Assembly (NCBI GenBank): GCA_964017195.1
Contig: OZ024895.1
Location: 6,816,001-6,880,000 of the forward strand
DNA from: Siderastrea radians
Lineage: Eukaryota; Cnidaria; Anthozoa; Scleractinia; Rhizangiidae
Length of the DNA stretch: 64,000 nt
Direction: 5' to 3'
Shown: positions 17,256-35,059 of the stretch, piece after piece
How the letters are laid out: the number at the start of each line of letters is the position of its first letter
How positions within the stretch are numbered: position 1 is the first letter of the stretch
Program-made: the position numbers and the translations under genes
Notes under the pieces: generated by a model
Database searches by the model: none
Told to the model about the DNA's origin: nothing
What the model saw: the letters and a program-made list of their open reading frames with translations, nothing else

Positions 17256-17261
17256 AAAATC
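17256..17261. repeat. Target-site duplication, left copy (AAAATC)
   Basis: The satellite reads AAAGAAAATC up to the element. The six bases AAAATC are repeated immediately after the element at 35,054-35,059, where the monomer continues with TAACCATAG. Removing the element and one copy leaves an intact monomer. A 6-bp duplication is the known size for Polinton integrases. Confidence 0.95.
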
Positions 17262-17331
17262 AGTAGTTATAGAGTTGGCGGTTCTAGATCATTGAAAATG
17301 ATCTTGAACCAAAGCCAACTCTGTAACTACT
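17262..17331. other. 70-nt hairpin at the left tip
   Basis: The outermost 70 nt fold back on themselves: AGTAGTTATAGAGTTGGC pairs with GCCAACTCTGTAACTACT, and GGTTCTAGATCAT pairs with ATGATCTTGAACC around a GAAA-type loop. There is one mismatch in each segment and a small bulge. The same structure closes the right end (34,984-35,053). It could be recognised by the integrase or by the replication machinery. Confidence 0.9.
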
Positions 17332-17355
17332 TCCATTAGATGGAAATCATTTTTT

Positions 17356-17470
17356 GGTAAACTATATGGTTTTTATTTTTTGGAGTGCGTTTGGCAAACT
17401 ATACGTTTTTTATTTTTTGGAGTGCGTTTGGCAAACTATACGTTTTTTATTTTTTGGAGTGCGTTTGTTC
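17356..17470 (+). repeat. Subterminal 37-bp direct repeats (x3)
   Basis: The unit CAAACTATACGTTTTTTATT followed by TTTTGGAGTGCGTTTGG repeats about three times with a 37-bp period. The copies sit inside the terminal repeat, so they are present inverted at about 34,845-34,959. Such subterminal repeats commonly serve as protein-binding sites; here that is only inference. Confidence 0.85.
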
Positions 17471-17580
17471 GATATCATGTTTCATGCGAAAACGTCTCTA
17501 CCATTCTCTGGCGTCATGATTTGACCACTTTGAGCTTGTTATATAACACGAGCGCAGTTTGCCATCGGATGAATATTACT

Positions 17581-18649: not shown

Positions 18650-18673
18650 ATATATTATATTGATAGATAATTT
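18650..18673 (-). promoter_or_regulatory. Start-proximal motif of the two-TM gene
   Basis: The 24-nt gap between genes is almost entirely the motif: read on the minus strand it gives TTATCTATCAATATAATATA just before ATG. It contains TCTA in an AT-rich context, as before the capsid genes. Confidence 0.55.
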
Positions 18674-20652: not shown

Positions 20653-20680
20653 ATAATATTAGTTTAGATTTTTTACATTA
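20653..20680 (-). promoter_or_regulatory. Start-proximal motif of fibre 1
   Basis: Read on the minus strand, AATCTAAACTAATATTAT ends at the ATG. It fills the 25-nt gap to the fibre 2 stop and overlaps that stop codon. Confidence 0.65.
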
Positions 20681-21865: not shown

Positions 21866-21890
21866 ATAATATATTAATGGTTTAGATTTT
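21866..21890 (-). promoter_or_regulatory. Start-proximal motif of fibre 2
   Basis: Read on the minus strand, ATCTAAACCATTAATATATT ends near the ATG. Its ATCTAA is also the last codon and the stop of the ATPase gene. Confidence 0.65.
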
Positions 21891-22523
21891 TTCGTCGAAA
21901 TTTCGGGCTACCTTTTTTTTGACCTTATCAACATACAGAAAACTATATGGATCCTTAGTAGCTTTCTGATAATCTGATTTATTTATGTTCAGTTCTCGGC
22001 AAATCATCGATTGCTCGTTTATAGAAGGAAAATCAAAAACACAAAAATGTGAACTATTCAGTCTTATTGTTTTATCGGTTCCGTAATAGCTTTGACTCAA
22101 ATATATGCAACAACAATTTTTATTTCTTGAATTGGTGAAGTAGTCTCGTATCCGTTCGTCATTTTTCTTACCTGTATTCAAATAGTCATCAAATATGATT
22201 AATTTTTGGTTTTCATCAGACAAATCTGTCAGAGGGATGATTTCATCGTTACTTGCTTCTATCACGTCATAACCGACCTCTTTTGATATTGGTTCAAGAG
22301 ATTTCAACAGATGCTTATATTTGCTTTGTTGGAGATTACGAGCGTAAAGATATATCTTGTCAAAGTATAAGAGCCTGTAGATCATATCAAGCAAAAGGTT
22401 AGTCTTGCCACCACCAGAGGGAGCACAAATAAGCATCCTAAAACATCGGTTTGGCATGAAACTCTTTAATTGAACAAAATCGTTGTTTTCATCATCTTGA
22501 ATGTCATAGTTTTGAATTCTCAT
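21882..22523 (-). CDS. FtsK/HerA (A32-like) genome packaging ATPase
   Basis: A 213-residue P-loop ATPase. Walker A is CAPSGGGKT (residues 33-41) and Walker B is KLIIFDD (107-113); a sensor-like motif YLSQSYY is at 141-147. Polintons, adintoviruses, virophages and NCLDVs use this family to pump DNA into the capsid. The length is typical of the compact Polinton form. It is transcribed divergently from the plus-strand structural operon through a 116-nt spacer carrying an inverted promoter motif on each side. The start is fixed by that motif, which ends directly at the ATG. Confidence 0.93.
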   Translation of the reverse strand: MRIQNYDIQDDENNDFVQLKSFMPNRCFRMLICAPSGGGKTNLLLDMIYRLLYFDKIYLYARNLQQSKYKHLLKSLEPISKEVGYDVIEASNDEIIPLTDLSDENQKLIIFDDYLNTGKKNDERIRDYFTNSRNKNCCCIYLSQSYYGTDKTIRLNSSHFCVFDFPSINEQSMICRELNINKSDYQKATKDPYSFLYVDKVKKKVARNFDEKI

Positions 22524-22639
22524 ATATCATTTGTTTATACAATTTTATCGCATGACGACACGCTATGCGAGCGTTTTTATATATGATAACCCTAATTTTT
22601 CCGAACAAAATACGAAATTTTATGTAAACAAATGATATA
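22524..22639. promoter_or_regulatory. Divergent promoter region with mirrored motifs
   Basis: The spacer between the ATPase (-) and the PPxY-protein gene (+) has the same 14-nt word TAAACAAATGATAT next to each ATG, in inverted orientation (about 22,524-22,540 and 22,624-22,638). The word aligns with the TCTAAACTAATCATATA motif of the capsid genes. The middle holds CGCAT/ATGCG and CGCT/AGCG inverted repeats. Confidence 0.7.
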
Positions 22640-23632
22640 ATGAGTTTACTCAAATGGAAACAATTAGCAGAGAGCCGATCCGAGCTTGGTAAAAAGATTA
22701 ACACAGTAAGAGAGACAATAAAACAAAAAACGATATCTGATCAAATGGGTGAAGTCGAGGCAGAGAAACTTTTCAAACCTATAACATCTGAGTTAAAGGA
22801 ACTCACATTACCTAAAATGCCAGTAAGAAGATTACCGAAGAAAAAGCAACCTGTTCCTGATTATGGAATAGATATTGATGATGAAGTGCCTGATTTTGGA
22901 TTGGACGATTTGTTTGATCAACCTGTTCTACCTGAAAACGATAAACAATTGGTTCCAAAACCTCCATCTTATGAAGATGTCCTTGAGGATTTAGCATCAG
23001 GTAAAAAACAAATGTATATAGATCCAGAATACATGTATGAACCAGAAGATCTTCCACCTGAATACGAAGAAGAAGTACCAGATTACGAAATCCTTGAGGA
23101 GGATGCAATTAACCAAGCTTTAGATAAATTGAATATTCCGAACTACGATGATGTTGAATTACGTCTCAAACAAGAAGATATGAATAACACAAGGAGGAAA
23201 GCTTATCTTAACAAGATATTGAATGATGCTAAAAAACAAAGGAACATACTAAATGCTAATTTGACGAACGTCAAAAAGAAATTAAATAGTGGTTCAATAA
23301 GTGAAGCTGTAGCTCAATATCAAATGAAGGTCATTGCTGATACGAGGAAGGTTCTAAATGATTATAACAATTACAACAATCAAAAACTGAAAAATATCAA
23401 AGGGTCTGGTTTGAAGAAAAAAACAAAAAGAGGTGGACAGGTAATGTTTTTCAATAATCCGACAGAAATGATGAAAAAACTTGAACTGATTATCGGATCA
23501 AAGGTTGCTGGTAATAATAGCATAGAGCTAAGAAACACAGGTGTCGCTCTTCTTGATATCTTGTTGAGAAATTCAATACTCAATAAGCCGCAATATAACA
23601 AAATATACAAAAACTATTTTAGTCTAAACTAA
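22640..23632 (+). CDS. Conserved Polinton virion-associated protein with two PPxY motifs
   Basis: A 330-residue protein. Residues 1-60 are basic and helical; 70-155 is an acidic Pro-rich linker with repeats VPDYG, VPDFG and VPDYE and two PPxY motifs (PPSY 108-111, PPEY 139-142). Residues 170-255 are predicted helical/coiled coil, followed by a basic KKKTKRGG stretch and a C-terminal helical domain. Its place at the head of the structural gene cluster fits one of the conserved uncharacterised Polinton proteins (PX/PY class). PPxY recruits Nedd4-type ubiquitin ligases in many viruses, and adenovirus protein VI also carries PPSY. A minor virion or assembly role is inferred, not shown. Confidence 0.65.
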   Translation: MSLLKWKQLAESRSELGKKINTVRETIKQKTISDQMGEVEAEKLFKPITSELKELTLPKMPVRRLPKKKQPVPDYGIDIDDEVPDFGLDDLFDQPVLPENDKQLVPKPPSYEDVLEDLASGKKQMYIDPEYMYEPEDLPPEYEEEVPDYEILEEDAINQALDKLNIPNYDDVELRLKQEDMNNTRRKAYLNKILNDAKKQRNILNANLTNVKKKLNSGSISEAVAQYQMKVIADTRKVLNDYNNYNNQKLKNIKGSGLKKKTKRGGQVMFFNNPTEMMKKLELIIGSKVAGNNSIELRNTGVALLDILLRNSILNKPQYNKIYKNYFSLN

Positions 23633-23640
23633 TCATATAA
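23617..23640 (+). promoter_or_regulatory. Start-proximal motif of the penton gene
   Basis: AGTCTAAACTAATCATATAA ends at the ATG. The first half is also the last codons and the stop of the preceding gene, so the motif sits across the gene junction. It is the clearest example of the shared element. Confidence 0.75.
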
Positions 23641-24402
23641 ATGAATAGACAACTTGTATTATCCAGTCATACAGTAAAAACCCAAAATGGTAATAAACCA
23701 TCGGATTTCACAATCAAATACAGTAATCCGATAATACTAGATTCAAACAGACAATATGAAATCGGCCTAGACCGAATCATTTCGATGTCATTCACTTGGT
23801 TTAATGTGACAAGAGAACTCAATAATCAGAAAATAAGATATTCGACAGATAGTGGTACTAATTGGACGGAAATTATATTCAACCCTGGAGTATGGAATTA
23901 CATTGATTTTGACAATTTAATCAAAGAAAAAACAAAAACAGGAACCTCATCAAACCCTCAATATCCAATCACTCTGGAGTTTAACGATACTGTATTCAGG
24001 ACAATAATAACACTAGCCTCAAATTACAGATTAGATCTTACTCAAAGTAATTTTAATGATCTTATTGGTTTCAATAAAAAGATTCTAACAAGTAGTGTAA
24101 ATGTTGGAGATTACATTCCTAATCTCTCACAAGACAGAGAAATATTGAATGTTCATTGTGATTTGATAAGTGACAGTCTTGTCGATGGTGAAGAGTCAGA
24201 TATTATATATAGTTTCAGTACCTCAACTCTCACCCCGAGTTATAGTTTCACACAAGAGCCTCGACGAGTTCAGTACAACCCGTGTAATAAAAATACGATC
24301 AATAAAATTCGGATATATATAACAGATGGCAAACGAAGAATCATCGATCTTAATCATAGTGACACTTCATTCAGTTTGATTTTAAGAGAGAAGAGAGATT
24401 AA
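23641..24402 (+). CDS. Minor capsid (penton-like) protein, single jelly roll
   Basis: A 253-residue protein rich in beta-strand patterns. The C-terminal part is typical of Polinton pentons: LNVHCDLI at about 176-183, a DIIYSFST strand, SFTQEPRRVQYNP, then INKIRIYITDG and RIIDLNHSDTSFSLILRE at the end. The N-terminal part (LILDSNRQYEIGLDRI-like region) lies at about 30-50. In related viruses five copies form the vertex. It is placed 8 nt after the PPxY gene and 18 nt before the small basic protein, within the structural operon. I am confident of the role from the family pattern and position. Confidence 0.85.
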   Translation: MNRQLVLSSHTVKTQNGNKPSDFTIKYSNPIILDSNRQYEIGLDRIISMSFTWFNVTRELNNQKIRYSTDSGTNWTEIIFNPGVWNYIDFDNLIKEKTKTGTSSNPQYPITLEFNDTVFRTIITLASNYRLDLTQSNFNDLIGFNKKILTSSVNVGDYIPNLSQDREILNVHCDLISDSLVDGEESDIIYSFSTSTLTPSYSFTQEPRRVQYNPCNKNTINKIRIYITDGKRRIIDLNHSDTSFSLILREKRD

Positions 24403-24420
24403 TCTAACTAATAGTTATAT
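24403..24420 (+). promoter_or_regulatory. Start-proximal motif of the small basic gene
   Basis: TCTAACTAATAGTTATAT fills the whole 18-nt gap between the penton stop and the next ATG. Confidence 0.65.
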
Positions 24421-24774
24421 ATGTCGTCGTATGAATACAAGCGAATTTATCACCCGAAACTAGGTCGTTTTGTGTATAAGCATAAAGGATCTGGGATCAT
24501 TGTTGATAACATTTTCAAACCAGTTGGAAGGGTGTTAAGTAAAGTTCCAGAAATGGTTTTAAAACCTTTTGCCAAAAAAGCGCTTGAATCTGGTATTTCA
24601 CATGCTGGAGACAAACTGGGAAAAAAAGCAGCTGAAAAAAGCGGAGAGCTTATTATGAGAAAATTACATGGTTCAACTAAACAACCAATGAAACCTACCA
24701 AACCTACCAAACCAAAACAAGAAGAAGATTACAACACAATTCTGAATAGACTTATATCTGGTACTGGATATTAA
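24421..24774 (+). CDS. Small basic protein of the capsid cluster, function unknown
   Basis: A 117-residue strongly basic protein. It starts MSSYEYKRIYHPKLGRF, contains a GSGI motif at 23-26, and has an amphipathic helical centre (VGRVLSKVPEMVLKPFAKKA, about 36-55). A Lys/Pro-rich tail with KPTKPTKPK precedes a C-terminal NRLISGTGY. It is preserved between the penton and major capsid genes with its own start-proximal motif, so it is likely a virion component. A core/DNA-condensing protein or a small cement protein would both fit; I cannot choose. Confidence 0.55.
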   Translation: MSSYEYKRIYHPKLGRFVYKHKGSGIIVDNIFKPVGRVLSKVPEMVLKPFAKKALESGISHAGDKLGKKAAEKSGELIMRKLHGSTKQPMKPTKPTKPKQEEDYNTILNRLISGTGY

Positions 24775-24784
24775 AAAGTGAATT

Positions 24785-24805
24785 TTATCTAAACTACTCA
24801 TATAA
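24785..24805 (+). promoter_or_regulatory. Start-proximal motif of the major capsid gene
   Basis: TTATCTAAACTACTCATATA ends one base before the ATG. It is close to the penton motif and defines the longer consensus. Confidence 0.75.
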
Positions 24806-26095
24806 ATGAGTTTCAGAACAAATGAAAATCTACAACGATATGAATACGTTCGTTTCCATTTGGATAATGTCATTGAGCAACCTGCTAACAATCAAAGCCA
24901 GAAAAAGACAGGTTACAGATTCACAATCAACGATAGGTCAACTATGTTCGATTTTTTTAATGGGTATTTCGAAGTAACTAAAGAGCTTCAAAAAAGGGCA
25001 GATGGTGCTGGATATGCTGCAGCGGATCGCATCACTATGATAAACGGATCTCACAGTCTAATCAGACATATGGTTATTAAATCGTCTGGTAAAATAGTAT
25101 ACGAGAGTGATAATTTGCATCGAATTACGAATGTGAAAAATTTACTCGAATACAGTGACGATTTTAGTAGATCTGTTGGGAAGAATTCGTTCTGGTATCT
25201 TGATACTGATGGAACAACAGCAAATACTAATACAGGTTTCGAAGCCCGTCGCATTTTAACCCAAGCAGTACAAAACAACGGTGGTGGGGGAGCTAAAAGT
25301 ATTAATGAGATGCTTCCCTTAAACAGATACAGCTTTTTTCAAGAATTAGAAAGAAAAATGTTGCCTCCGATGCAGCTCACAATTGAACTTACATTTAACG
25401 AAGACAGTGAACTGATTCACATGGCAAATGGCACAGACCCTGGTCGTGTTGTAGTAAAGAGATTGTATCTTTGGCTCCCAAGATTAATCCCAAAAGACAG
25501 CATGTATAGTAATTTCGTTTCAGAGTTTCTCAAGCCAACAACCTGGAAATATATGCGAGATCTCTACAATCAGTCAGCAAATACCAGAGCTGTTCAGAAT
25601 ATGTTTCAAATCAGTCCAGCTATCGATGACGTTAAACATGTTTTTATATATCTCCAGAGGACAGACGCACCAAATAATGATGAAGCAGAGAGGAGTCCGT
25701 ATTTGTTTGACACTTTCAAGTTGAATGCAGCTAATGCTAATAGCTCTCTATCAAACTGCAGGCTTGAATACGGGAATAATGTTTTTTACCCAGAGCTGGA
25801 ATATGATGCAGATTCTAAAATACGGGTATTCAATGATCTCATGTCATATGCATTTCGTAAGAACGATTACAATTCAGGAACACAGCTTAATGTATCCAAT
25901 TTCACTAGTTTGTATGGATTATTGTATTTCGATTTGTCATATCAGAAAGAGGTAGTGACGAGAGATCCTAAACAGTTGATTCTCCATTATCGTCTCAATG
26001 TAGCCCCGGCAGCAAACGTCCGAGCTCATAGCATCGTATTTTACGAGAGTGAGGTTGTTGTTAAGACAGTTGGAAACGAATTGATGATAGTTTAA
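24806..26095 (+). CDS. Major capsid protein (double jelly roll)
   Basis: A 429-residue protein with the Polinton/adintovirus hexon pattern. The N-terminal region contains YRFTINDRSTMFDFFNGYFE (about 37-56) and a helix-strand segment HSLIRHMVIKSSGKIVYESD. The loop at about 150-175 is Gly/Asn-rich, followed by YSFFQELERKMLPPMQLTIE (about 180-199) and VKRLYLWLPRLIP. The second jelly roll ends with ILHYRLNVAP and HSIVFYESEVVVKTVGNELM. It would form the pseudo-hexameric capsomers of an icosahedral shell. The stop codon is followed at once by the ATG-like start region of the next gene. Confidence 0.92.
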   Translation: MSFRTNENLQRYEYVRFHLDNVIEQPANNQSQKKTGYRFTINDRSTMFDFFNGYFEVTKELQKRADGAGYAAADRITMINGSHSLIRHMVIKSSGKIVYESDNLHRITNVKNLLEYSDDFSRSVGKNSFWYLDTDGTTANTNTGFEARRILTQAVQNNGGGGAKSINEMLPLNRYSFFQELERKMLPPMQLTIELTFNEDSELIHMANGTDPGRVVVKRLYLWLPRLIPKDSMYSNFVSEFLKPTTWKYMRDLYNQSANTRAVQNMFQISPAIDDVKHVFIYLQRTDAPNNDEAERSPYLFDTFKLNAANANSSLSNCRLEYGNNVFYPELEYDADSKIRVFNDLMSYAFRKNDYNSGTQLNVSNFTSLYGLLYFDLSYQKEVVTRDPKQLILHYRLNVAPAANVRAHSIVFYESEVVVKTVGNELMIV

Positions 26096-26115
26096 ATGAA
26101 TATGTTTTTTAATAC

Positions 26116-26137
26116 AGATTTATCTAACATATATTAT
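26116..26137 (+). promoter_or_regulatory. Start-proximal motif of the pVI-like gene; decides the start
   Basis: TTTATCTAACATATATTAT ends directly at the ATG at 26,138, not at the upstream in-frame ATG at 26,096. In every other gene the motif abuts the true start, so translation probably begins at 26,138. Confidence 0.6.
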
Positions 26138-26965
26138 ATGACACAACTATACGAAATTAAAGTTAGTTTATCACCAAACCAGAAAAAGAATCTTAGTAAC
26201 GCGTATCATAAAAGAGAAACAATAGTTCTAAGGCTCACGAAGGACTCTCTATCTGGGAATGATACTCTGTATGTACCTCAGAATATAGTTAAGCGATTGG
26301 AAAAAAATAGAAAATTGAAAAAGGGAATGGACATTAAACTTTCTAAAACAAACATTCGAAAGCAATTAGGTGGATCTCTTCTGTCTACAGTTCTGGCGCT
26401 TGGAAGAACTTTTGCTCCCACGATTGCTAAGACCATTGGTTTGTCAGCTTTAGCTGGAGCAGCTAGTGAAGGAGCATCTCAGATTGTTAAGAAGATATCC
26501 GGAAAAGGTGTTCAAACCGGTGGGTTCCTCATACCACAAAATAAAATCGATCAGTTGATAACATATAAACATCTTTTGACCGCCAAACAAAAGAAGGATA
26601 TATTAAATGCTCTACAAACAGGCTCTGGTGTTCATATAAAACCAACAAAAGTACAAACGGGTGGGTTCTTAGGTACTCTTCTTGCATCAATTGGAGTCCC
26701 TTTAGCTATTGAGGCAATAAAGAAGATGACTGGTAAAGGTGCCCCTCAGATGGGACAACCCCAACAAAGACCACCCAGATCTAATGATAATCAGGATGGT
26801 GGTTTGTTAATGCCAATGTATAGAACTCCACCTTTTTATGGGAATTGGCCGAACGGTACAATCGGTATGGGGACTAAAAAAAAAGATCCCAAAAAGGGCA
26901 AAGGTCTACTATTAGGCAAAAACTCACCCTTCAAAAACGTCCCTCTTCTAAACATTCTATTGTAA
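26138..26965 (+). CDS. pVI/core-like virion protein with amphipathic helices and repeated QxGG sites
   Basis: A 275-residue basic protein from the preferred start (289 from the ATG at 26,096). Numbered from 26,138: an N-terminal folded part MTQLYEIKVSLSP..., then four Q-x-G-G motifs (QLGG 76-79, QTGG 126-129, QTGG 173-176, QDGG 219-222). Just after the first and third come hydrophobic amphipathic stretches (SLLSTVLALGRTFAP and FLGTLLASIGVPLAIEAIKK). A Pro-rich part and a basic KKKDPKKGKG tail end in LLLGKNSPFKNVPLLNILL. Adenovirus pVI combines protease cleavage sites with a membrane-lytic helix; a similar job is inferred. Its 3' end overlaps the protease frame by about 88 nt, and a run of nine A lies at 26,876-26,884. 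Confidence 0.6.
   Translation: MTQLYEIKVSLSPNQKKNLSNAYHKRETIVLRLTKDSLSGNDTLYVPQNIVKRLEKNRKLKKGMDIKLSKTNIRKQLGGSLLSTVLALGRTFAPTIAKTIGLSALAGAASEGASQIVKKISGKGVQTGGFLIPQNKIDQLITYKHLLTAKQKKDILNALQTGSGVHIKPTKVQTGGFLGTLLASIGVPLAIEAIKKMTGKGAPQMGQPQQRPPRSNDNQDGGLLMPMYRTPPFYGNWPNGTIGMGTKKKDPKKGKGLLLGKNSPFKNVPLLNILL
26876..26884 (+). promoter_or_regulatory. Possible -1 frameshift site (A_AAA_AAA) before the protease
   Basis: In the pVI-like frame the A-run reads AAA AAA AAA, giving the heptamer A_AAA_AAA at 26,878-26,884. The protease frame (-1) is closed by TAA at 26,875-26,877 and open from 26,878. Only a weak CCC/GGG hairpin and an AAGGG/CCCTT pairing follow, so the structural support is poor. Confidence 0.4.
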
Positions 26966-27423
26966 AACCAAAATTCCATAAGAATGCCCCATTAAGCAAT
27001 TATGATTTAATAAAATGGTGTAAATATCTGAATATCCCAATCAAAGATGTTCTGTCTCGAGATGAAACTGTCCCACATGATCATCAACAGGCTCTATTCA
27101 TTTACAATCTTGAACCGAGTTATATGTCAGGGAGTCATTGGGTGTCAACATATGTCAAAGATAACGTCATCAATTACTTTGATTCATTTGGTTTGCCTCC
27201 CTTCCAAGAAATGGTCAATCATGCTAAAAAGAAGAACTTAACATTACTTCATCAGAACAATCAAATACAAAATTTACTGACGACAACATGCGGTTACTTC
27301 TGTTTGTACTTTTTGAATGAGATGAATAAGGGTAAATCATATTTTGATCTGTTGGAAGTTTTCAACATATATGATACGACGAAGAATGAGAGGTTTCTAG
27401 CACGGTATTTCAAAAATATGTAA
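26878..27423 (+). CDS. Adenain-like maturation cysteine protease
   Basis: The Ulp1/adenain-type protease shows all catalytic elements: His in GSHWVSTYV (codon at 27,136), Asp in NYFDSFG, Gln in NNQIQ and Cys in TTTCGYFCLYF (about 27,289). The first in-frame ATG is at 27,124, immediately before the GSHW motif. That start would drop about 50 residues of family-like N-terminal sequence (SNYDLIKWCKYLNIP and SRDE-type segments), which are coded in the same frame from about 26,965 back to 26,878 without any ATG. No start-proximal motif is present either. Expression by -1 frameshifting from the pVI-like gene is therefore proposed. The enzyme should cleave capsid precursors during maturation; its likely substrates carry QxGG sites. 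Confidence 0.85.
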   Translation, partial: KKRSQKGQRSTIRQKLTLQKRPSSKHSIVKPKFHKNAPLSNYDLIKWCKYLNIPIKDVLSRDETVPHDHQQALFIYNLEPSYMSGSHWVSTYVKDNVINYFDSFGLPPFQEMVNHAKKKNLTLLHQNNQIQNLLTTTCGYFCLYFLNEMNKGKSYFDLLEVFNIYDTTKNERFLARYFKNM

Positions 27424-27434
27424 TCAAGTTATAT
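27416..27434 (+). promoter_or_regulatory. Start-proximal motif of DUF5679 gene A
   Basis: TATGTAATCAAGTTATAT ends at the ATG and overlaps the protease stop. It is a weaker relative of the motif beside the ATPase. Confidence 0.5.
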
Positions 27435-27836
27435 ATGAAATCTTATTGCGTGAAACAGAAAAGGGTCACAGAATGTGTACCTGGGAGTGAACGATATGTG
27501 AGAGCTAAAAATAACAGACTTATGATGAAATGTATTTGTGGTGAATGTGGTATTACGAAAACCAAATTTATCAAAAGCCAAAAGGGAGGTGAAAATCCAT
27601 TAGGTAAAGCTTTCGAGGCAGCCAAAATAGCCGAACAAATAACTCGCAAAGTAATTCCATCAACCAACCATGTATTTGACCGATATTGGTCTGGTGATAT
27701 CTTAAAAGGTGCTTTCACAGGACAAACGGGTATAACAAGCAAGAAATTCTGGACTAAACCAAAGAAGGGTACTGTCATGCGTTTGGTGAAAAATCCAAAA
27801 ACTGGTAAATATGAGAACGTATATATTGAACCTTAA
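27435..27836 (+). CDS. DUF5679-type protein A
   Basis: A 133-residue basic protein. Residues 1-47 form a Cys-containing module (KSYCVKQKRVTECVPGSERY, then KCICGECGITKTKF) resembling DUF5679 zinc-ribbon-like domains. It is nearly identical to the start of the next gene. The tail differs: a QKGG site at 49-52, a helical part (GKAFEAAKIAEQITRK), then a basic C-terminus ending ENVYIEP. The QKGG matches the putative protease site in the pVI-like protein, so it may be a processed virion protein. The duplication of the N-terminal module in two adjacent genes suggests that it targets cargo or packages it. Function unknown. Confidence 0.6.
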   Translation: MKSYCVKQKRVTECVPGSERYVRAKNNRLMMKCICGECGITKTKFIKSQKGGENPLGKAFEAAKIAEQITRKVIPSTNHVFDRYWSGDILKGAFTGQTGITSKKFWTKPKKGTVMRLVKNPKTGKYENVYIEP

Positions 27837-27857
27837 TCTAATCTAATCATATTATAT
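27834..27857 (+). promoter_or_regulatory. Start-proximal motif of DUF5679 gene B
   Basis: AATCTAATCTAATCATATTA precedes the ATG, with TCTAA repeated twice. Confidence 0.65.
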
Positions 27858-28043
27858 ATGAAATCATATTGCGTGAAACAAAAAAGGGTCACAGAATGTG
27901 TACCCGGGAGTGAACGATATGAAAAGGCTAAAAATGGGAGGCTTATGCTTAAATGCAAATGCTCTGAATGCGGAATAACTAAGACTAAATTCGTTAAACA
28001 GGCGGGAAACGGGTCAGCCCGTCGACAGGGGCGGGCGTACTAG
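27858..28043 (+). CDS. DUF5679-type protein B, entry to the PLA2 frame
   Basis: A 61-residue open frame with the same Cys module as gene A (KSYCVKQKRVTECVPGSERY; KCKCSECGITKTKF), then a short tail ending at TAG 28,041-28,043. The following frame codes for a phospholipase A2 protein without its own ATG or motif, so the two belong together. The frame change is -1, and the overlap (27,998-28,043) contains the in-phase heptamer G_GGA_AAC. Either programmed frameshifting makes both a short and a long product, or one indel has broken a fusion gene. I see no way to decide from one copy. Confidence 0.6.
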   Translation: MKSYCVKQKRVTECVPGSERYEKAKNGRLMLKCKCSECGITKTKFVKQAGNGSARRQGRAY

Positions 28044-28690
28044 ATACAGTAGCATCAACTGGTACTGATTTATTGATTCACCATGGTATTCCTTGGCTGG
28101 GAAAAAAGGCTGTTGAAATGGGAAGATATTATGGATCAGAAGCCTTGAGAAACCCAAAACTGCAGAAAAAGGCTATCGATTATGCTCTGGATAAGTTGAA
28201 TCCAATGATTCAAAATGTTGGAAGTCAAGCTCTTGATCAATTATCAACCAAAATAAGACCGAATAGAAAGTATAAAACTGACAGAAAGGATTTGGATGGC
28301 GCTGGTGTTGATATACATAAACTAATTGGGAAAATACCAAAACCAAAAGCTGGATGGACTCCTGGAAAGTATAAATACATGGGACCATACAATCCTCTCG
28401 ATAAACAGTTAGAGTATGATAGGAACACTGGAGAGGTCACCAAGTGGTACGTACAACCTTACAATAAAGTGGATGAAATAGCAGCTCATCATGATATTTG
28501 TTATGATATGGGGAAAAACAAAGGTGAATGTGACAAGAAAATGGTTAAGTCATTGGAAGAAATACCTTATGGACAGATGCCAAAATGGGGACAAACTGCT
28601 CGGTTCTTGATTAACACGAAGCAGAAACTAGGTCTTGGGACAAAAAACGGAAAAGGCCGTCGAGTGAAGAAAACTGGCAAAAAGAATTAG
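27998..28690 (+). CDS. Phospholipase A2-like domain protein (parvovirus VP1-type)
   Basis: The frame is open from 27,998, with no ATG upstream of the domain. Counting from a TTG at 28,073, residues 1-60 are helical. The PLA2 domain follows: a Ca-binding loop YMGPYNPLD (102-110) and the catalytic HHDICYD (139-145, His140-Asp141). A very basic tail (KGRRVKKTGKKN) ends the protein. Such domains occur in parvovirus capsids and in several Polintons and are thought to breach endosomal membranes. The upstream partner in another frame is DUF5679 gene B. The 3' end overlaps the integrase frame and contains a textbook-like frameshift signal. Confidence 0.8.
   Translation, partial: TGGKRVSPSTGAGVLDTVASTGTDLLIHHGIPWLGKKAVEMGRYYGSEALRNPKLQKKAIDYALDKLNPMIQNVGSQALDQLSTKIRPNRKYKTDRKDLDGAGVDIHKLIGKIPKPKAGWTPGKYKYMGPYNPLDKQLEYDRNTGEVTKWYVQPYNKVDEIAAHHDICYDMGKNKGECDKKMVKSLEEIPYGQMPKWGQTARFLINTKQKLGLGTKNGKGRRVKKTGKKN
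28004..28036 (+). promoter_or_regulatory. Possible -1 frameshift signal G_GGA_AAC plus GC-rich hairpin
   Basis: The heptamer GGGAAAC at 28,004-28,010 is in phase with the DUF5679 frame. After a 6-nt spacer, GCCCG (28,017-28,021) can pair with CGGGC (28,032-28,036) around a 10-nt loop. GGGAAAC is the known gag-pro slippery site of simian type D retroviruses. The local GC content is strikingly higher than in the rest of the element. Confidence 0.45.
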
Positions 28691-28735
28691 CTGATGAATT
28701 ACACAAACCCATAAAACGAAATTTTACTCGACGGC
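28642..28735 (+). promoter_or_regulatory. Putative -1 ribosomal frameshift signal PLA2 to integrase
   Basis: In the PLA2 frame the codons AAA AAC preceded by A make the heptamer A_AAA_AAC (28,642-28,648). After a 7-nt spacer, the perfect 10-bp stem GCCGTCGAGT (28,656-28,665) / ACTCGACGGC (28,726-28,735) closes a 60-nt loop. The PLA2 stop (28,688-28,690) lies in the loop. The integrase frame is -1 relative to PLA2 and opens at 28,615 after a TAA. Heptamer type, spacer and stem match known -1 frameshift sites; a pseudoknot within the loop is possible. Confidence 0.6.
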
Positions 28736-29607
28736 GTGTTATTGTAAATCATATTGACGAAATATGGTGCTCTGATCTTGTTGAGATGCAACAGTTTAGT
28801 CGATGGAACGCTGGCTACAGATATCTTCTTATGGTTTTAGATGTATTCTCTAAATACGGTTGGATCGTTCCATTAAAAGATAAAAAGGGTGAAACCGTTA
28901 TGAATGCTTTTAAAACAATCCTTAAAGAAGGCAGAAAACCACAATATCTATGGACTGATAAAGGGAAAGAGTATTATAACAAACATGTTAAGGAACTACT
29001 TGATAAGAATAAAATAACCTTGTACTCAACCGAAAATGAGGAAAAGTCGTCCGTTTGTGAAAGATGGAACCGTACAATTAAAACCAAGATGTGGAAGCAG
29101 TTTACTGTTCAAGGTAATACACAGTATTTAGACATGCTACCCAAATTAGTGAAACAATATAACAACACTAAACATAGCTCTATCAAAATGACACCCATAG
29201 AAGCAAGCAAAAAGAAGAATGAAGGGACTGTTTACTTTAATCTGTATGGTAATTTGGAAACATTAAAACAGAAACCGAAATTTAAAGTTGGTGATAATGT
29301 CAGAATAAGTAAGTATAAACGAAATGTGTTTGATAAGGGCTATACACCAAATTGGTCTGAGGAAGTTTTTAAAGTTGATGAAATACAACACACCAATCCA
29401 ATCACATACAAACTAAAGGATCTCAGAGATGAAGACATTCAAGGGAGTTTTTATGAACCTGAATTACTGAAAGCTGAACAAAAAGTATTCAGAATTGATA
29501 AAGTCATTCGGAGGGATTATAAAAAGAAGCAAGCTTTGGTGAAGTGGAAAGGATATAGTGATGAATTTAACAGTTGGATACCATTCAAGGACTTAAAGGA
29601 TATATAA
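28645..29607 (+). CDS. Retroviral-type (rve) integrase with C-terminal chromodomain
   Basis: The DDE integrase core has its first Asp in WCSDLVEM (codon 28,774-28,776), the second in LWTDKGKEYY and the Glu in SSVCERWNRTIK. A basic SH3-like part follows (KFKVGDNVRISKYKRNVF...), and the C-terminal chromodomain reads VIRRDYKKKQALVKWKGY, then NSWIPF. The only early ATG in frame, 28,786, lies after the first catalytic Asp and would give a dead enzyme. The N-terminal coding sequence runs back through the overlap with the PLA2 gene, without any ATG or promoter motif. Translation by -1 frameshifting is the simplest explanation. The enzyme inserts the element with a 6-bp duplication; the chromodomain may steer it to heterochromatin, in line with its satellite location. 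Confidence 0.92.
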   Translation, partial: KRKRPSSEENWQKELADELHKPIKRNFTRRRVIVNHIDEIWCSDLVEMQQFSRWNAGYRYLLMVLDVFSKYGWIVPLKDKKGETVMNAFKTILKEGRKPQYLWTDKGKEYYNKHVKELLDKNKITLYSTENEEKSSVCERWNRTIKTKMWKQFTVQGNTQYLDMLPKLVKQYNNTKHSSIKMTPIEASKKKNEGTVYFNLYGNLETLKQKPKFKVGDNVRISKYKRNVFDKGYTPNWSEEVFKVDEIQHTNPITYKLKDLRDEDIQGSFYEPELLKAEQKVFRIDKVIRRDYKKKQALVKWKGYSDEFNSWIPFKDLKDI

Positions 29608-29623
29608 AATGATTTAAAGAGAA

Positions 29624-29665
29624 ATATCTAATATATATTATATCGATTGATACAGTATATACTGT
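29624..29665 (+). promoter_or_regulatory. Orphan start-proximal motif and 14-bp palindrome
   Basis: ATATCTAATATATATTATAT (about 29,624-29,643) looks like the gene-start motif, but no ATG follows. It is followed by the perfect palindrome ACAGTATATACTGT (29,652-29,665). The 178-nt gap between integrase and BRO-N holds no gene. It could be a relic of a lost gene, a promoter for an untranslated RNA, or an operator. Confidence 0.4.
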
Positions 29666-29754
29666 CTTTTGCTTTTGGTAGCCAAAAATATCATTGTTTC
29701 TGGCTATCATCTGTTGTGGTGAATGACACTTAAGGAACATATACAAACACTTAT

Positions 29755-29785
29755 AAAGAGATATTATTATATATAATTACAAGAT
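29755..29785 (+). promoter_or_regulatory. AT-rich start-proximal motif of the BRO-N gene
   Basis: GAGATATTATTATATATAAT lies 8-28 nt before the ATG. It shares ATATTATTATATA with the DNA polymerase gene and lacks TCTAA, so it may be a second (early) promoter class. Confidence 0.5.
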
Positions 29786-30244
29786 ATGGAAATTTTTACT
29801 TATGAAGGAAATAAATTAGCTATCATTAAAAAGGATGATGATGTATGGTTCCGTGGTAAAACAGTTGCCGACATTTTGGGATATGAAGATACCAAGAAAG
29901 CGATTTTCAAACATGTTGATTCTGAAGATAAATGTTCACTTAAGAGGCTCAAATCCAAGGGGGGCGATTCGTCCCCTTTGACTGAGGTTGGTGAAAATGA
30001 CCAAAAATCCAAGAGTAACGATTCGTTACCTTTGACACGGAACACTGGAAACACGATTTATATAAATGAATCTGGATTGTACAGCCTTATATTGAGATCA
30101 AAAATGGATAAAGCCAAAGAATTCAAACGTTGGGTAACAAAAGAGGTTTTACCATCAATCAGAAAAACAGGTAAGTATGAATTCAACAACAGACCACACA
30201 AAATGCTAGCAAATGCTAGCATTCAATATCAATACAGAATATGA
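29786..30244 (+). CDS. BRO-N domain protein, N-terminal half of a split gene
   Basis: A 152-residue frame. BRO-N features are FTYEGNKLAIIKKDDDVWFRGKTVADILGY (in two parts, about 4-33), IYINESGLYSLILRSK (about 91-106) and FKRWVTKEVLPSIRKTGKY (about 113-131). BRO-N domains bind DNA and occur in many large DNA viruses. Between them lies a polar linker with a duplicated 18-residue unit (KSKGGDSSPLT / KSKSNDSLPLT). A 10-bp tandem duplication at 30,201-30,220 shifts the frame, and the last residues are read out of frame. The nuclease that follows has no start motif, so both halves were one protein. Confidence 0.8.
   Translation: MEIFTYEGNKLAIIKKDDDVWFRGKTVADILGYEDTKKAIFKHVDSEDKCSLKRLKSKGGDSSPLTEVGENDQKSKSNDSLPLTRNTGNTIYINESGLYSLILRSKMDKAKEFKRWVTKEVLPSIRKTGKYEFNNRPHKMLANASIQYQYRI
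29951..30034 (+). repeat. 54-bp in-frame duplication with conserved hairpins
   Basis: AAATCCAAG...TTTGAC occurs at 29,951 and again 54 bp later at 30,005. In each copy the variable centre flanks CGATTCG and can form a stem of about 9-10 bp around an ATT loop. Bases that differ between copies change in pairs (G-C to A-T and T-A), which keeps the stem. Confidence 0.7.
30201..30220 (+). repeat. 10-bp tandem duplication causing a frameshift
   Basis: AAATGCTAGC is present twice in a row (30,201-30,210 and 30,211-30,220). The extra 10 bp equals a +1 shift and separates the BRO-N frame from the VRR-NUC frame exactly here. Confidence 0.9.
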
Positions 30245-30662
30245 CTTGCATAAGAAGGTAGTCAACTTTATTAGAAACAATTATCCTAAAGCAATCCTAA
30301 TTCCAACACTTGGTGAAAACCAAATTAATGGTAACATGAGAATAAAATCATACAACATGGGTTATCAAAAGGGATCTCCTGATCTGATCATACAGAATTT
30401 ACATTTGAATTACTCAGGTTTTGCAATTGAATTTAAAACACCAACTGGTTATGGAAAGCTTTCAGAAGAACAAAAGATGATGCTGCAAGAGTATGAAAAC
30501 AACAATTACAAAATATTAGTGAGCAACGATTATGACGAAATCATAAAAGAAATCATACTTTATTTCCAGGGTGTGAGAATAAAATGCAAAAAATGTTCCA
30601 GAAAATTCAAGTCATCGGAAACATTGAGCAATCATACAAAGTTCATACATGAACACCAATAA
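30213..30662 (+). CDS. VRR-NUC nuclease with C-terminal C2H2 finger, second half of the split gene
   Basis: A 149-residue frame. The PD-(D/E)xK nuclease pattern is present: GENQINGN, KGSPDLIIQNL (Asp at about 57), then GFAIEFKTPTGYG with Glu-x-Lys at about 73-75, followed by LSEEQKMMLQEY and a YKILVSNDYDE strand. A C2H2 zinc finger (CKKCSRKF...NHTKFIH) ends the protein. Nucleases of this family resolve branched DNA or act in repair. The frame begins inside the 10-bp duplication, overlaps the BRO-N frame by 32 nt and lacks a promoter motif. As it stands it could be translated only by re-initiation at the ATG at 30,213. Confidence 0.8.
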   Translation: MLAFNINTEYDLHKKVVNFIRNNYPKAILIPTLGENQINGNMRIKSYNMGYQKGSPDLIIQNLHLNYSGFAIEFKTPTGYGKLSEEQKMMLQEYENNNYKILVSNDYDEIIKEIILYFQGVRIKCKKCSRKFKSSETLSNHTKFIHEHQ

Positions 30663-30678
30663 ATAAAATCAACTGTAG

Positions 30679-30708
30679 TTCAAAGGATCCATATGTGGAT
30701 CATTTGAA
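30679..30708. terminator. Hairpin between VRR-NUC and DNA polymerase
   Basis: TTCAAAGGATCCA and TGGATCATTTGAA pair over 12 of 13 positions around a TATG loop. It lies 17 nt after the nuclease stop. A transcript-end or processing signal is possible. Confidence 0.4.
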
Positions 30709-30742
30709 TTCTTGACTACTTAAAGACACAACCAAAAGAGGC

Positions 30743-30767
30743 TTAAAAAAAAATATTATTATATAGT
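30743..30767 (+). promoter_or_regulatory. AT-rich start-proximal motif of DNA polymerase B
   Basis: TTAAAAAAAAATATTATTAT then ATAGT stands directly before the ATG. It shares ATATTATTATATA with the BRO-N gene. Confidence 0.55.
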
Positions 30768-33700
30768 ATGAAGATAATGAATAAGAAAGATCTTAAGAAA
30801 CTCAGTAAAAGTCAATTGATAGAAATGCTCCTGAAGCAATCTATTATGAAACCGGTTCCAGCACCAAGAACCAAAAAACCAACGGATAAACCTATTCCAA
30901 CACCTCGCAAGAGTGTTAAAAAAATGGTAAAAGAGTATGAAGACAACATCATTCTTCCGCCTCTAGAATTCCGGGATAATTACAAACCAGTCCCAGCACC
31001 AAGAACTAAGAAAAATGCTGTCAAAAAACCGGTTCCAACACCAAGAACCATAATAAAGCAAACAGACAATGCTTTAAAAGGGTTCACTAAGTCTTATGAA
31101 ATAAGCATCAAAAGCGATCAAGACCCATTAGCCCAAATGCAAAACACTAGAAAGGCTATAGAACATCGTTTAATAACTTTGTTGAATGAAATGAAAGGCT
31201 TGAAATATGTTGAAACATTGAAAGTAACATTCGAAAAAAATGTAGGTGATGTTTTGGTTGAAAAAACCGCATATTTCAATAGCACATCTCAAACAATAAT
31301 CAACCGAATGGAAATCACTGATTCATTACAATTAACAAAACAACAGATAATGAATAAAATAGCTCAATGGATATCAGAAGGTTCAGGATGGACTATACAA
31401 TCTGTTCATAGTCATTACCTAAACATTGCCAAATACGAACCCATGAAAGGATCCTCATATATCCAACTGCCTTCTGAACTGAGAAATTCAAAGAAGGGGT
31501 TGATAAACATGAAAAATGAGGATAATGAATGTTTCAGATGGTGCCATATCAGACATATAAATCCACAAGAGAAATATCCTCAAAGAATAAAAAAGACAGA
31601 CAAACAATACGTTGAAAAGTTAGATTACTCAGGTGTTGAATTTCCAGTCGGTGTCAAACATTACAAAAAAATTGAGAAGCAAAACAGTATCAATATAAAT
31701 GTATTCGGATACGAAAACAAACAGCCATATCCCATCTATGTTTCAAAAGAAAAGTATGAAGATCATATGGAACTACTTCTGGTAACTGAAAAAGAAAACA
31801 AGCATTATGTTCTCATAAAGGATTTTAATAGATTCATGTATAACCAAACAAAACATGAACACAGGAAACACTTTTGCATGCACTGCCTGCAATGTTTCAG
31901 TTCCGACAGGGTATTAAGCAATCACAAAGAAAACTGTATTCAAGTGAACGGTACTCAAGCAATTAAAATGCCTAACAAAGACAATAACATACTGAAATTC
32001 AACAACTTTCATAAACAGCAACCTGTGCCATTTGTAATTTATGCCGATTTCGAGGCTATAACTGAAAAGGTACAAGGATGTCAACAAAAAGGTAATAAAT
32101 CATACACCGAAGCCTACCAAACACATACCGACTGCGGATATGGATACAAGGTTGTCTGCTGTTATGATGACAAATATACCAAACCAATACAACTATATAG
32201 AGGTGAAAAGGCTGTATACAAATTCATGGAAAATATTTTAGAAGAAGTGAAATACTGCAAAAAAGTAATGAAAAAATATTTCAATAAACCATTGAGAATG
32301 ACAGAAGAGAATGAACAGGAATTCAAAAAAGCAACAACATGCCACATCTGTGATAAAAAATATACTGAAAAAGACATTCGAGTGAGAGATCATTGCCATA
32401 TTACAGGTGAATTCAGAGGCTCAGCTCACCAAGAATGTAATCTGAAACTTAGAATAAACCCAAAAGAAATAAAAATTCCAGTCATATTCCATAATTTGAG
32501 AGGTTACGACAGTCATTTCATTATGCAAGAGATTGGAGCTATTGTTAAGAAACATGCATACAAAAATAATAAAGGAGAGGAGAAACAAATGAATATCAAT
32601 GCTATTCCAAATAACATGGAGAAGTATATGGCTTTTATGCTTGGCAACCATCTAACATTTATCGACAGTTTCCAGTTTATGAGTTCAAGTTTGGATAAAT
32701 TAGTTAGCAACTTACCAGCAGAAGCTTTAAAGTATACAAGCAAAAGATTCCAAAAAGAAAAATTAAATCTTATGACACGAAAAGGTATTTATCCGTATGA
32801 TTACATGGACAGTTTTGATAAATTCAATAAAACAGAATTACCGACTAAAGAAGAATTTTACAGCATATTGAATAATGAGCATATTTCAGATGAAGATTAT
32901 TGTCATGCTAAGAAAGTGTGGAATACATTTCAATTACAAACAATGGGCGAATACCACAATCTATATCTTAAGTCTGATATCCTTTTATTAGCTGATGTAT
33001 TCGAAAACTTCCGCAAAACATGTCTTCAGTATTACAAATTAGACCCATGCCACTATTTCACTAGCCCTGGTTTGAGTTGGGACGCCATGTTGAAGATGAC
33101 TAATATTCAATTGGAACTAATGACAGACATAGATATGTTTCAATTCATTGAAAAAGGCATGCGTGGTGGGATCAGTTATATTGCCAATCGATATGGAAAA
33201 GCGAATAACAAGTACATGAGTGAATATGATGAGAATGCACCGTCAAAATACATTATGTATCTTGATGCTAATAATTTGTACGGTTGGGCTATGAGTCAAT
33301 ATCTCCCTACTGGCGGTTTCAAATGGTTGACGGAAAAGCAGATTAATAAAATCAATTTAGCTCAGTATAATGAAGACAGTAATAAAGGATTATTAATAGA
33401 AGTCGATTTAGAATACCCGAAAGAGTTGCATGACCTTCATAATGACTACCCATTAGCCGCAGAGAGAGTTTGTGTTAATAAAGATATGCTGTCTGAGTAT
33501 TGCAAAGAAATAGCTACAAAATATAATATATCGACAGGACTAGTACATAAATTAATTCCTACATTAAGCAATAAACAAAAATATGTTCTGCATTATAGAA
33601 ACCTGCAGCTGTATATTGATCTTGGATTGAAAGTAAACAAAGTCCATCGAGTGTTAGAATTCAATCAGTCACCTTGGCTCAAACAATACATCAACTTTAA

Positions 33701-34538
33701 TACTCAAAAACGTACTCAAGCGAAAAATTCATTCGAAAAAGATTTCTTCAAACTTATGAATAACTCAGTATTTGGTAAAACAATGGAAAACATAAGAAAG
33801 CGTGTTGATGTCCGACTTATCACAGATGAGAAGAAACTATTGAAAATGGTAAGTAAACCAACTTATGTAAGCAGTAAGATCTTCAACGAAAATTTGGTAG
33901 CAGTGCATAAAATAAAGGAAACGCTCACTTTAAACAGGCCGGCATATGTAGGAATGTGTATTCTTGATCTGAGCAAGACATTGATGTATAATTTCCATTA
34001 TAACTACATCAAAGAAAAGTATGGAACCAAAGCCAAGCTGCTCTTCACTGACACAGACAGTCTGAAATATGAGATTGAAGCTGAAGATGTGTACCGAGAC
34101 TTTTGGAATGACAAAGATCGATTTGACAACAGCGACTACCCAGAAAGCTCGCCGTATTTCGATAAGACAAACAAGAAGGTAATCGGTAAATTCAAAGATG
34201 AAGCAGCTGGAATACCAATAACAGAATTCGTCGGTTTGCGATCAAAAATGTACAGTTACATAAAAGACAACCAGAAAGGTGGAAAAACAGCCAAAGGAAT
34301 CAAAAAGAACATTATAAAGAACAATATCAAACATGCAGATTATAAAGAAGTACTATTTAATAACAAACAAATACATCATACCATGAAGACGATCAGAAGT
34401 AGCAACCATCAACTCGGAAGCTATGAGCTCAATAAAGTGTCACTCAGCTGTTTCGATGACAAAAGATATATAGCCAACAATGGAGTAAATAGTTTCGCTT
34501 ACGGACATTATGCAATTCAAAAATGCATCGACTGCTGA
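30768..34538 (+). CDS. polB: Protein-primed family B DNA polymerase
   Basis: A 1,256-residue polymerase, complete. The N-terminal ~100 residues are basic with four PxxxPR motifs (29-34, 42-47, 74-79, 88-93). A C2H2-like finger (CMHCLQCF...HKENC) lies at about 367-385. Exonuclease motifs: YADFEAI (Exo I, Asp ~427), HNLRGYDSHF (Exo II, ~573-582), YLKSDILLLADVF (Exo III, ~733-745). A Cys/His module CHICDKKY...RDHCHITGEFRG...ECN sits between Exo I and Exo II (~525-565). Palm motif A is YLDANNLYG (Asp ~832), motif B is KLMNNSVFGKT, motif C is FTDTDSL (~1,093-1,096). It would copy the linear element from its protein-primed ends. A second Met at codon 4 is an alternative start. Confidence 0.96.
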   Translation: MKIMNKKDLKKLSKSQLIEMLLKQSIMKPVPAPRTKKPTDKPIPTPRKSVKKMVKEYEDNIILPPLEFRDNYKPVPAPRTKKNAVKKPVPTPRTIIKQTDNALKGFTKSYEISIKSDQDPLAQMQNTRKAIEHRLITLLNEMKGLKYVETLKVTFEKNVGDVLVEKTAYFNSTSQTIINRMEITDSLQLTKQQIMNKIAQWISEGSGWTIQSVHSHYLNIAKYEPMKGSSYIQLPSELRNSKKGLINMKNEDNECFRWCHIRHINPQEKYPQRIKKTDKQYVEKLDYSGVEFPVGVKHYKKIEKQNSININVFGYENKQPYPIYVSKEKYEDHMELLLVTEKENKHYVLIKDFNRFMYNQTKHEHRKHFCMHCLQCFSSDRVLSNHKENCIQVNGTQAIKMPNKDNNILKFNNFHKQQPVPFVIYADFEAITEKVQGCQQKGNKSYTEAYQTHTDCGYGYKVVCCYDDKYTKPIQLYRGEKAVYKFMENILEEVKYCKKVMKKYFNKPLRMTEENEQEFKKATTCHICDKKYTEKDIRVRDHCHITGEFRGSAHQECNLKLRINPKEIKIPVIFHNLRGYDSHFIMQEIGAIVKKHAYKNNKGEEKQMNINAIPNNMEKYMAFMLGNHLTFIDSFQFMSSSLDKLVSNLPAEALKYTSKRFQKEKLNLMTRKGIYPYDYMDSFDKFNKTELPTKEEFYSILNNEHISDEDYCHAKKVWNTFQLQTMGEYHNLYLKSDILLLADVFENFRKTCLQYYKLDPCHYFTSPGLSWDAMLKMTNIQLELMTDIDMFQFIEKGMRGGISYIANRYGKANNKYMSEYDENAPSKYIMYLDANNLYGWAMSQYLPTGGFKWLTEKQINKINLAQYNEDSNKGLLIEVDLEYPKELHDLHNDYPLAAERVCVNKDMLSEYCKEIATKYNISTGLVHKLIPTLSNKQKYVLHYRNLQLYIDLGLKVNKVHRVLEFNQSPWLKQYINFNTQKRTQAKNSFEKDFFKLMNNSVFGKTMENIRKRVDVRLITDEKKLLKMVSKPTYVSSKIFNENLVAVHKIKETLTLNRPAYVGMCILDLSKTLMYNFHYNYIKEKYGTKAKLLFTDTDSLKYEIEAEDVYRDFWNDKDRFDNSDYPESSPYFDKTNKKVIGKFKDEAAGIPITEFVGLRSKMYSYIKDNQKGGKTAKGIKKNIIKNNIKHADYKEVLFNNKQIHHTMKTIRSSNHQLGSYELNKVSLSCFDDKRYIANNGVNSFAYGHYAIQKCIDC

Positions 34539-34579
34539 TATTTTTATCAAAATGGAGCAACTTCTGATATTTTTATCAG
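34536..34579. terminator. Two small hairpins at the polymerase stop
   Basis: TGATATTTTTATCA (34,536-34,549) includes the TGA stop, and CTGATATTTTTATCAG (34,564-34,579) repeats it with a 6-bp stem and TTTT loop. The tandem copies right at the gene end suggest a 3'-end signal. Confidence 0.45.
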
Positions 34580-34758
34580 AAAAAGTAATTTATGGGTACG
34601 TTTTTGATTGGCTGATGACCTTGACACAATAGATATTAGTGATGACTCATTTCCTGTTCAGACATGCCAAGACTTGTTTCTCCGAAAAACTTCCTGCTTT
34701 CCGAGAATAGTTTGGAGTCACGTGATGAAAAAATGCGTAGGATCCAAATCCTATTAAT
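34580..34758. other. Non-coding gap before the right terminal repeat
   Basis: This ~180-bp stretch has no credible gene. An inverted repeat TAGGAT/ATCCTA with a CCAA loop lies at its inner edge next to the right terminal repeat. Confidence 0.6.
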
Positions 34759-35053
34759 TGCGCTCGTGTTATACAACAAGCTCAAAGTGGTCAAATCATG
34801 ACGCCAGAGAATGGTAGAGACGTTTTCGCATGAAATATGATATCGAACAAACGCACTCCAAAAAATAAAAAACGTATAGTTTGCCAAACGCACTCCAAAA
34901 AATAAAAAACGTATAGCTTGCCAAACGCACTCCAAAAAATAAAAACCATATAGTTTACCAAAAAATGATTTCCATCTAATGGAAGTAGTTACAGAGTTGG
35001 CTTTGGTTCAAGATCATTTTCAATGATCTAGAACCGCCAACTCTATAACTACT
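34759..35053 (-). repeat. Right terminal inverted repeat (295 bp)
   Basis: Reverse complement of 17,262-17,556 with three substitutions. It includes the inverted 37-bp subterminal repeats and the 70-nt tip hairpin (34,984-35,053). Confidence 0.96.
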
Positions 35054-35059
35054 AAAATC
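35054..35059. repeat. Target-site duplication, right copy (AAAATC)
   Basis: AAAATC follows the element and continues as TAACCATAGTTTCAATCC, completing the monomer interrupted at 17,261. Confidence 0.95.

Follow-up and report, generated by a model that had tools for sequence, protein, structure and literature searches.

Two serial -1 frameshift sites probably lead to the integrase of a Polinton in the Siderastrea radians genome

How can a Polinton express an integrase whose reading frame offers no ATG before its first catalytic residue? We asked this of a window of 64,000 nucleotides from Siderastrea radians (contig OZ024895.1, positions 6,816,001 to 6,880,000), whose numbering is used throughout. 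At 17262-35053 lies a Polinton that looks complete and has the features of Polinton/Maverick elements, that is, long TIRs, a 6-bp TSD, an rve integrase with a chromodomain and a packaging ATPase of the A32 type (ORF 21882-22523, Pox_A32 in Pfam, E 1.1e-8). Since the TIRs are 99% identical and the TSD is perfect, the element looks recent. As regards PolB, the 1256-aa ORF at 30768-34538 had Endonuclease_7 as its sole Pfam match above cut-off, and as regards the capsid, a 429-aa ORF had no Pfam match. The features on which our argument rests are collected in Table 1.

Table 1. Features of the Polinton and of its putative frameshift sites (positions in the window).
Feature	Position	Strand	Remarks
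Left TSD, 6 bp, AAAATC	17256..17261	.	identical 6 bp at 35054-35059
Left TIR, begins AGTAGT	17262..17559	+	298 nt, 99% identity
ORF upstream of protease, putative minor-capsid-like (our own reading)	26096..26965	+	no Pfam match above cut-off
Candidate -1 site, in-phase A_AAA_AAA in variable A-run	26878..26884	+	for protease
Adenain-like protease, open frame	26878..27423	+	Peptidase_C5 E 0.048, below cut-off
ORF A, DUF5679-like zinc protein, 61 aa, start of the chain	27858..28043	+	DUF5679 E 0.0004, below cut-off
PLA2, open frame	27998..28690	+	PF08398 E 5.7e-8; stop TAG 28688-28690
Slippery heptamer 1, G_GGA_AAC	28004..28010	+	in phase with ORF A
Hairpin 1, GCCCGTC / GGCGGGC	28017..28036	+	predicted; 7 pairs (one G-U), 6-nt loop
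Integrase (INT), open frame, rve core and chromodomain	28615..29607	+	PF00665 E 3.2e-11; PF00385 E 2.7e-7
Slippery heptamer 2, A_AAA_AAC	28642..28648	+	in phase with PLA2 (ACA AAA AAC)
Stem 2, 5' arm	28656..28669	+	predicted pairing with 28722..28735
Stem 2, 3' arm	28722..28735	+	predicted pairing with 28656..28669
Right TIR	34756..35053	-	partner of left TIR (298 nt, 99%)
Right TSD, 6 bp, AAAATC	35054..35059	.	perfect match to left TSD

The original prediction described the integrase (INT) frame as lying at -1 to the PLA2 frame behind a slippery heptamer and a stem, and its description of the frames, the heptamer, the spacer and the stem was accurate. Stop-to-stop reading places INT at -1 to PLA2 with an overlap of 76 nt, and the first ATG of INT (28786) comes after the codon of the first catalytic Asp (28774). 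This Asp, taken to be the catalytic one of rve integrases, is residue 54 of INT and is invariant in an alignment of 15 proteins. Within the overlap, A_AAA_AAC is in phase with PLA2 and is followed by the 7-nt spacer (28649-28655) and by the perfect 10-bp stem (28656-28665 / 28726-28735), which extends to 14 pairs when G-U pairs are counted. How much do these elements weigh? The ORFs of the element contain 30 canonical in-phase heptamers in 5362 codons (0.0056 per codon), and the chance of finding one in a 25-codon overlap is about 13%. As such heptamers are not rare in this element, heptamer 2 alone is weak evidence. A perfect 10-bp stem 4-10 nt downstream was reached by one of 4000 dinucleotide shuffles, and the folding energy of the site had a z-score of -2.18, with 6 of 200 shuffles equally good. 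A possible pseudoknot between the loop of this site and downstream sequence, sought by eye, was discarded, as its supposed partner varies among copies.

More was found one step upstream. A further in-phase -1 site, which had not been noticed before, precedes PLA2: the PLA2 frame is itself at -1 to the frame of a small zinc protein, ORF A, with an overlap of 46 nt and no PLA2-frame ATG before 28118. The heptamer GGGAAAC in this overlap is separated by 6 nt from a predicted hairpin (MFE z -2.20), which is of a kind often reached by chance when a perfect stem of 5 is required (1738 of 4000 shuffles). Because PLA2 is at -1 to ORF A, INT lies two successive -1 steps downstream of it. Both junctions have a canonical heptamer in phase within the overlap and a predicted structure 6 or 7 nt further on.

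Judging from the sequence, we consider it highly likely that INT is made by two successive programmed -1 frameshifts. In this model a single start, the ATG at 27858, would serve all three frames. The majority of ribosomes would end at 28043 and release the 61-aa zinc protein, whereas some would slip on G_GGA_AAC with the aid of hairpin 1 and make a zinc-PLA2 protein (277 aa by arithmetic). Some of these would slip again on A_AAA_AAC, aided by stem 2, to give a zinc-PLA2-INT protein (583 aa by arithmetic). The integrase could then be an occasional addition to a protein that presumably serves the entry of virions, comparable to Pol behind Gag, and as a rare tail it might be packaged in the particle and carried to the next cell. 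The slippage, its rates and the delivery of the integrase in the particle to the next cell are what we infer from this arrangement. The PLA2 domains of parvoviruses serve entry. In the part of the study of Sf Mavericks available, a capsid-like protein is described as containing PLA2 (PMC5803895).

We then asked whether the arrangement is peculiar to one copy. In a DNA search of the 804.8-Mb assembly, 40 of 911 candidates were scored. The list of 41 matches included the window itself and a fragment of 47 bases; the other 39, compared over about 2.9 kb each, form with the window the 40 scored of 911 candidates, all from one genome and sharing ancestry. The relations of ORF A to PLA2 and of PLA2 to INT are both -1 in all 39 copies. 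The linkers do contain indels, but these add up to a multiple of three in each of the 39. In-phase GGGAAAC is present in 38 of 39, the exception (L015) having a broken PLA2 frame as well, and in-phase AAAAAAC in every copy, so that the loss of the heptamer from intact copies, which the original prediction had named as contrary evidence, was not seen. The second spacer measures 7 nt in all 40 sequences, the window counted. The PLA2 frame is open in 36/39 and the INT frame in 38/39; in two copies (L038 and L047) INT has no stop inside the piece of about 2.9 kb that was compared. Two copies on the same contig (L044 and L045) are 99.2% identical over 2883 bases and lie about 6 kb apart, less than the length of an element.

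Both INT and PLA2 are under purifying selection, with dN/dS of about 0.08-0.11. Compared with the window, the median dN/dS over 39 copies each was 0.084 for INT (mean dS 0.46) and 0.098 for PLA2 (mean dS 0.20), and between nearest pairs it was 0.111 (35 pairs) and 0.103 (32 pairs), respectively. Such low ratios at these dS values indicate that the two frames remain functional although they are split. Our main argument follows the same line: INT is kept functional in copies in which its frame is separate from that of PLA2, and 28 of the 39 have no INT-frame ATG ahead of the catalytic Asp. In the remaining 11 such an ATG is found upstream of the core, 189-204 nt before the Asp codon in 10 of them, and some internal starts of INT may therefore occur in addition to the shift. 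Conservation of the sites and frames under selection was found in this way for 39 copies of one genome, with single-frame exceptions in other genomes. The proposal that INT is a minor extension of PLA2 agrees with the frames and the heptamer (39/39 each), the 7-nt spacer, most of the stem and the selection. It must be modified in one respect: what is extended is no free PLA2 protein but, most likely, the product of the upstream -1 site.

Conservation at the nucleotide level needs more care. No divergence was seen at heptamer 2 (0.0) and hardly any at heptamer 1 (0.0037), compared with 0.16-0.45 at third positions of INT; the heptamers code in two frames, however, and part of their conservation is imposed by this double coding. 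Outside its heptamer the first overlap is not unusually conserved (0.106 vs 0.100 in ORF A and 0.033 in PLA2 just after it). In the second overlap, variation falls on third positions of PLA2, which are first positions of INT; the trace of PLA2 coding is therefore the clearer one, and no selection on the INT reading is evident in this short stretch.

The predicted RNA structures were also compared among the copies. For stem 2, 96.8% of cells were paired over 40 sequences, as against 28-52% when the partner was slid by 1-4 bases. The 3' arm carries nearly all of its variation: one pair alternates between U-A and U-G, and others between G-C and G-U. The changes are almost always one-sided and mostly retain a U-G or G-U wobble; at one pair an A.C mismatch is present in 15 of the 40. 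The near invariance of the 5' arm is no clean evidence of pairing, because this arm also encodes conserved INT residues. All 7 pairs of hairpin 1 are kept in 37/40 sequences. Two copies, L028 and L041, which probably have one shared origin, keep 4 of 7 pairs at the columns of the window; in both, another hairpin of 8 bp with two-sided changes is predicted in its stead, almost at the same position and with a spacer of 7 nt, and a stop codon directly follows heptamer 1. The check proposed beforehand was whether heptamer, spacer and stem persist among relatives with compensatory changes. Persistence was observed for the heptamer (39/39), the 7-nt spacer and most of the stem, but at stem 2 nearly every change is one-sided, and compensation was seen in the upstream hairpin of L028 and L041 only.

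Can the same arrangement be recognized in other genomes? Protein searches were evaluated over the best 120 matches each, with limited match length, and the shares of split and single-frame forms given here are not population frequencies. In the ORF A search, Gly-Asn stands near the C-terminal end in 110 of the best 120 of 230 matches, and 11 of this set stop exactly at Gly-Asn. Among distinct PLA2 tails, 67 of 71 contain [KL]N (1000 shuffles gave 32.7 on average and 48 at most), although the test is loose and P0134, P0142, P0149 and P0236 match for other reasons. If the 0 frame is to read Lys-Asn and the -1 frame Lys-Lys-Arg, AAAAAAC is the only possible sequence. When pairs of proteins were examined for the ability to share DNA, 35 of 5760 pairs of ORF A with PLA2-frame proteins fitted in the -1 register and none in +1. 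For PLA2 with INT, 3 of 2299 pairs fitted in -1 and none in +1, two of them involving the INT of the window and one being the window with itself; when short PLA2 tails were set against INT N-termini, 3 of 19 fitted in -1, that of the window included, and none in +1. For P0048 and P0049, combination with the P0133 tail leads back to TTTAAA(C/T) and a stop after it. Another slippery heptamer would then occupy the corresponding site, which suggests that the capacity to slip is preserved and not the encoded residues. These shared-DNA readings, whose pairs come mostly from different records, would extend the arrangement to other genomes. For P0074 and P0095, INT-frame readings made by hand would imply a non-canonical CTTAAAC at the second junction.

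Relatives with the integrase in frame, or with an ATG of its own, had been named as speaking against the shift, and both exist: PLA2 and INT share one frame in at least 27 among the best 120 of 7632 integrase matches, and 11 of 39 copies have the ATG mentioned above. These cases limit the claim without refuting it, as the single-frame forms lie among split ones. In unrooted trees of the PLA2 domain they appear in several spots, 6-7 changes being needed, and in some cases single-frame and split forms have identical PLA2 domains (P0042 and P0201). Single-frame PLA2-INT forms are probably derived, to the extent that unrooted trees can tell. From the first tree, 18 rows with a missing or short PLA2 part had been dropped, eight of them single-frame fusions, and P0036 and P0237, which both continue into integrase sequence, had been mislabelled; the repeat tree had 128 rows, with 9 long or odd ones excluded. 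In P0122 (147 members) it is ORF A and PLA2 that share a frame, and the lineage retains a tail of the type found where PLA2 and INT are split. Among the best 120 of 7632 integrase matches, 16 begin after the first catalytic Asp. No relatives were found in IMG/VR by protein scans or pattern searches, or in GTDB genomes by one scan.

Could the split frames be no more than the remains of older genes? Ancestral PLA2-INT and zinc-PLA2 fusions may have been broken by ordinary frameshift mutations, so that the window would be decayed and its heptamers fortuitous. Such an origin would suit the single-frame PLA2-INT proteins, which are common elsewhere and in which a different register of the same A-run could account for the lysine-rich linker. 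However, both breaks are in the same register in 39/39 copies with dN/dS near 0.1 in INT and PLA2, the single-frame forms would have to arise among split ones by the 6-7 changes on the trees, and the TIRs (99%) and the perfect TSD do not suggest decay. The selection on INT in split-frame copies largely refutes this explanation, and we regard it as very improbable. It seems unlikely, too, that INT initiates independently, be it by leaky scanning to an ATG near 28585, from a non-AUG start or by reinitiation after the PLA2 stop. Such a start would not explain why the in-phase heptamers are invariant, why a stem follows at a constant 7 nt, or why INT is at -1 in all 39 copies, and PLA2 poses the same problem one step earlier. 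The 11 copies with an upstream INT-frame ATG, 10 of them within the narrow range given above, are in favour of such a start, as are many INT entries elsewhere that begin shortly before the core, although these calls may be mechanical; in the other 28 copies the Asp lacks a preceding ATG even though INT is open in 38/39.

Nuclear splicing could also join the frames. The host genome is large, of eukaryote size, and an annotated relative, P0070 of Oculina patagonica, lacks the PLA2-INT linker, perhaps through a predicted intron. Yet with overlaps of 46 and 76 nt an intron would remove conserved coding sequence, and of six donor hexamers searched for in 27858-28800 a single one is present (GTACGT, 28447). 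We think splicing extremely improbable. Two serial -1 shifts are the reading that we prefer.

Retroviruses make Gag-Pro-Pol by successive -1 slips, the double frameshift of betaretroviruses. The Polinton resembles them in its two serial -1 overlaps with canonical heptamers, short spacers and downstream structures, and in a last frame that encodes a DDE integrase. It differs from them in being a DNA element with TIRs, in having a zinc protein and PLA2 in place of Gag and protease in the upstream frames, and in that a Pfam scan of 17 frames of the element showed no reverse transcriptase. The bacterial transposases of IS3 and IS1 likewise produce a DDE enzyme as a minor fusion through -1 slippage on an A-run; unlike the Polinton, these elements use a single shift, and their fusion includes no virion protein. 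The nearest published case is that of adintoviruses, Polinton-related animal viruses, for which slippery sites of Penton and of Hexon-adenain were predicted by KnotInFrame (PMC11071296), the latter a capsid-protease fusion. In the parts of that paper available these are program predictions for other genes; no integrase, PLA2 or serial shifts are described there, and no conservation among copies is given of the kind seen for the present Polinton. Vertebrate Mavericks (PMC8097293) and Sf Mavericks (PMC5803895) share with it the TIRs, the chromodomain integrase and the ATPase, and also have PolB and protease, of which the present element has putative counterparts, but the passages concerned present their integrase as one gene or ORF and frameshifts as mutations only. 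The literature surveyed, mostly abstracts and passages, describes no frameshift case for a Polinton integrase or PLA2. If the two serial sites are real, they would keep the dosage of integrase low and have it packaged as a tail of the entry protein, and the Gag-Pro-Pol strategy would be present in a DNA lineage with a retrovirus-like integrase. Annotation ORF by ORF would log such genes as truncated or broken.

Is the protease made in a similar way? The frame of the adenain-like protease has no ATG before 27124 and is at -1, over an A-run, to the ORF that starts at 26096. It gave no match among solved structures and is under purifying selection (median dN/dS 0.127). We hold this third site as a weaker candidate only, because the A-run is variable and the frame relation is kept in 34/39 copies. 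With the published Hexon-adenain prediction, as far as seen in part of that source (PMC11071296), it offers a lead. Perhaps the element is a DNA transposon with retroviral logic, in which INT is reached by two serial -1 shifts from zinc-PLA2 and the protease by a third from a minor capsid protein, both being packaged as rare tails; this wider proposal is possible, but we would lean slightly against it.

Several smaller observations concern the element and its surroundings. It is flanked by an 81-bp self-similarity, a tandem satellite, at about 1000-17200 and 35060-62000. The 429-aa ORF ends in TAA, and the next ORF, which is in frame with it, begins with its ATG right behind this stop (TAAATG, window 26080-26110). 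At 27435-27836 there is a second DUF5679-like ORF, whose N-terminus is nearly that of ORF A and whose tail is different. Two neighbouring ORFs at 19417-21865 on the minus strand begin alike (MSYTNGILNHDDS); one of them has a weak match to YadA_stalk, and the pair may be fibre-like. Finally, BRO-N and VRR-NUC ORFs at 29786-30662 overlap end to end, and a BRO-N-VRR-NUC fusion is reported for a dinoflagellate PLV in the available part of PMC12721341.
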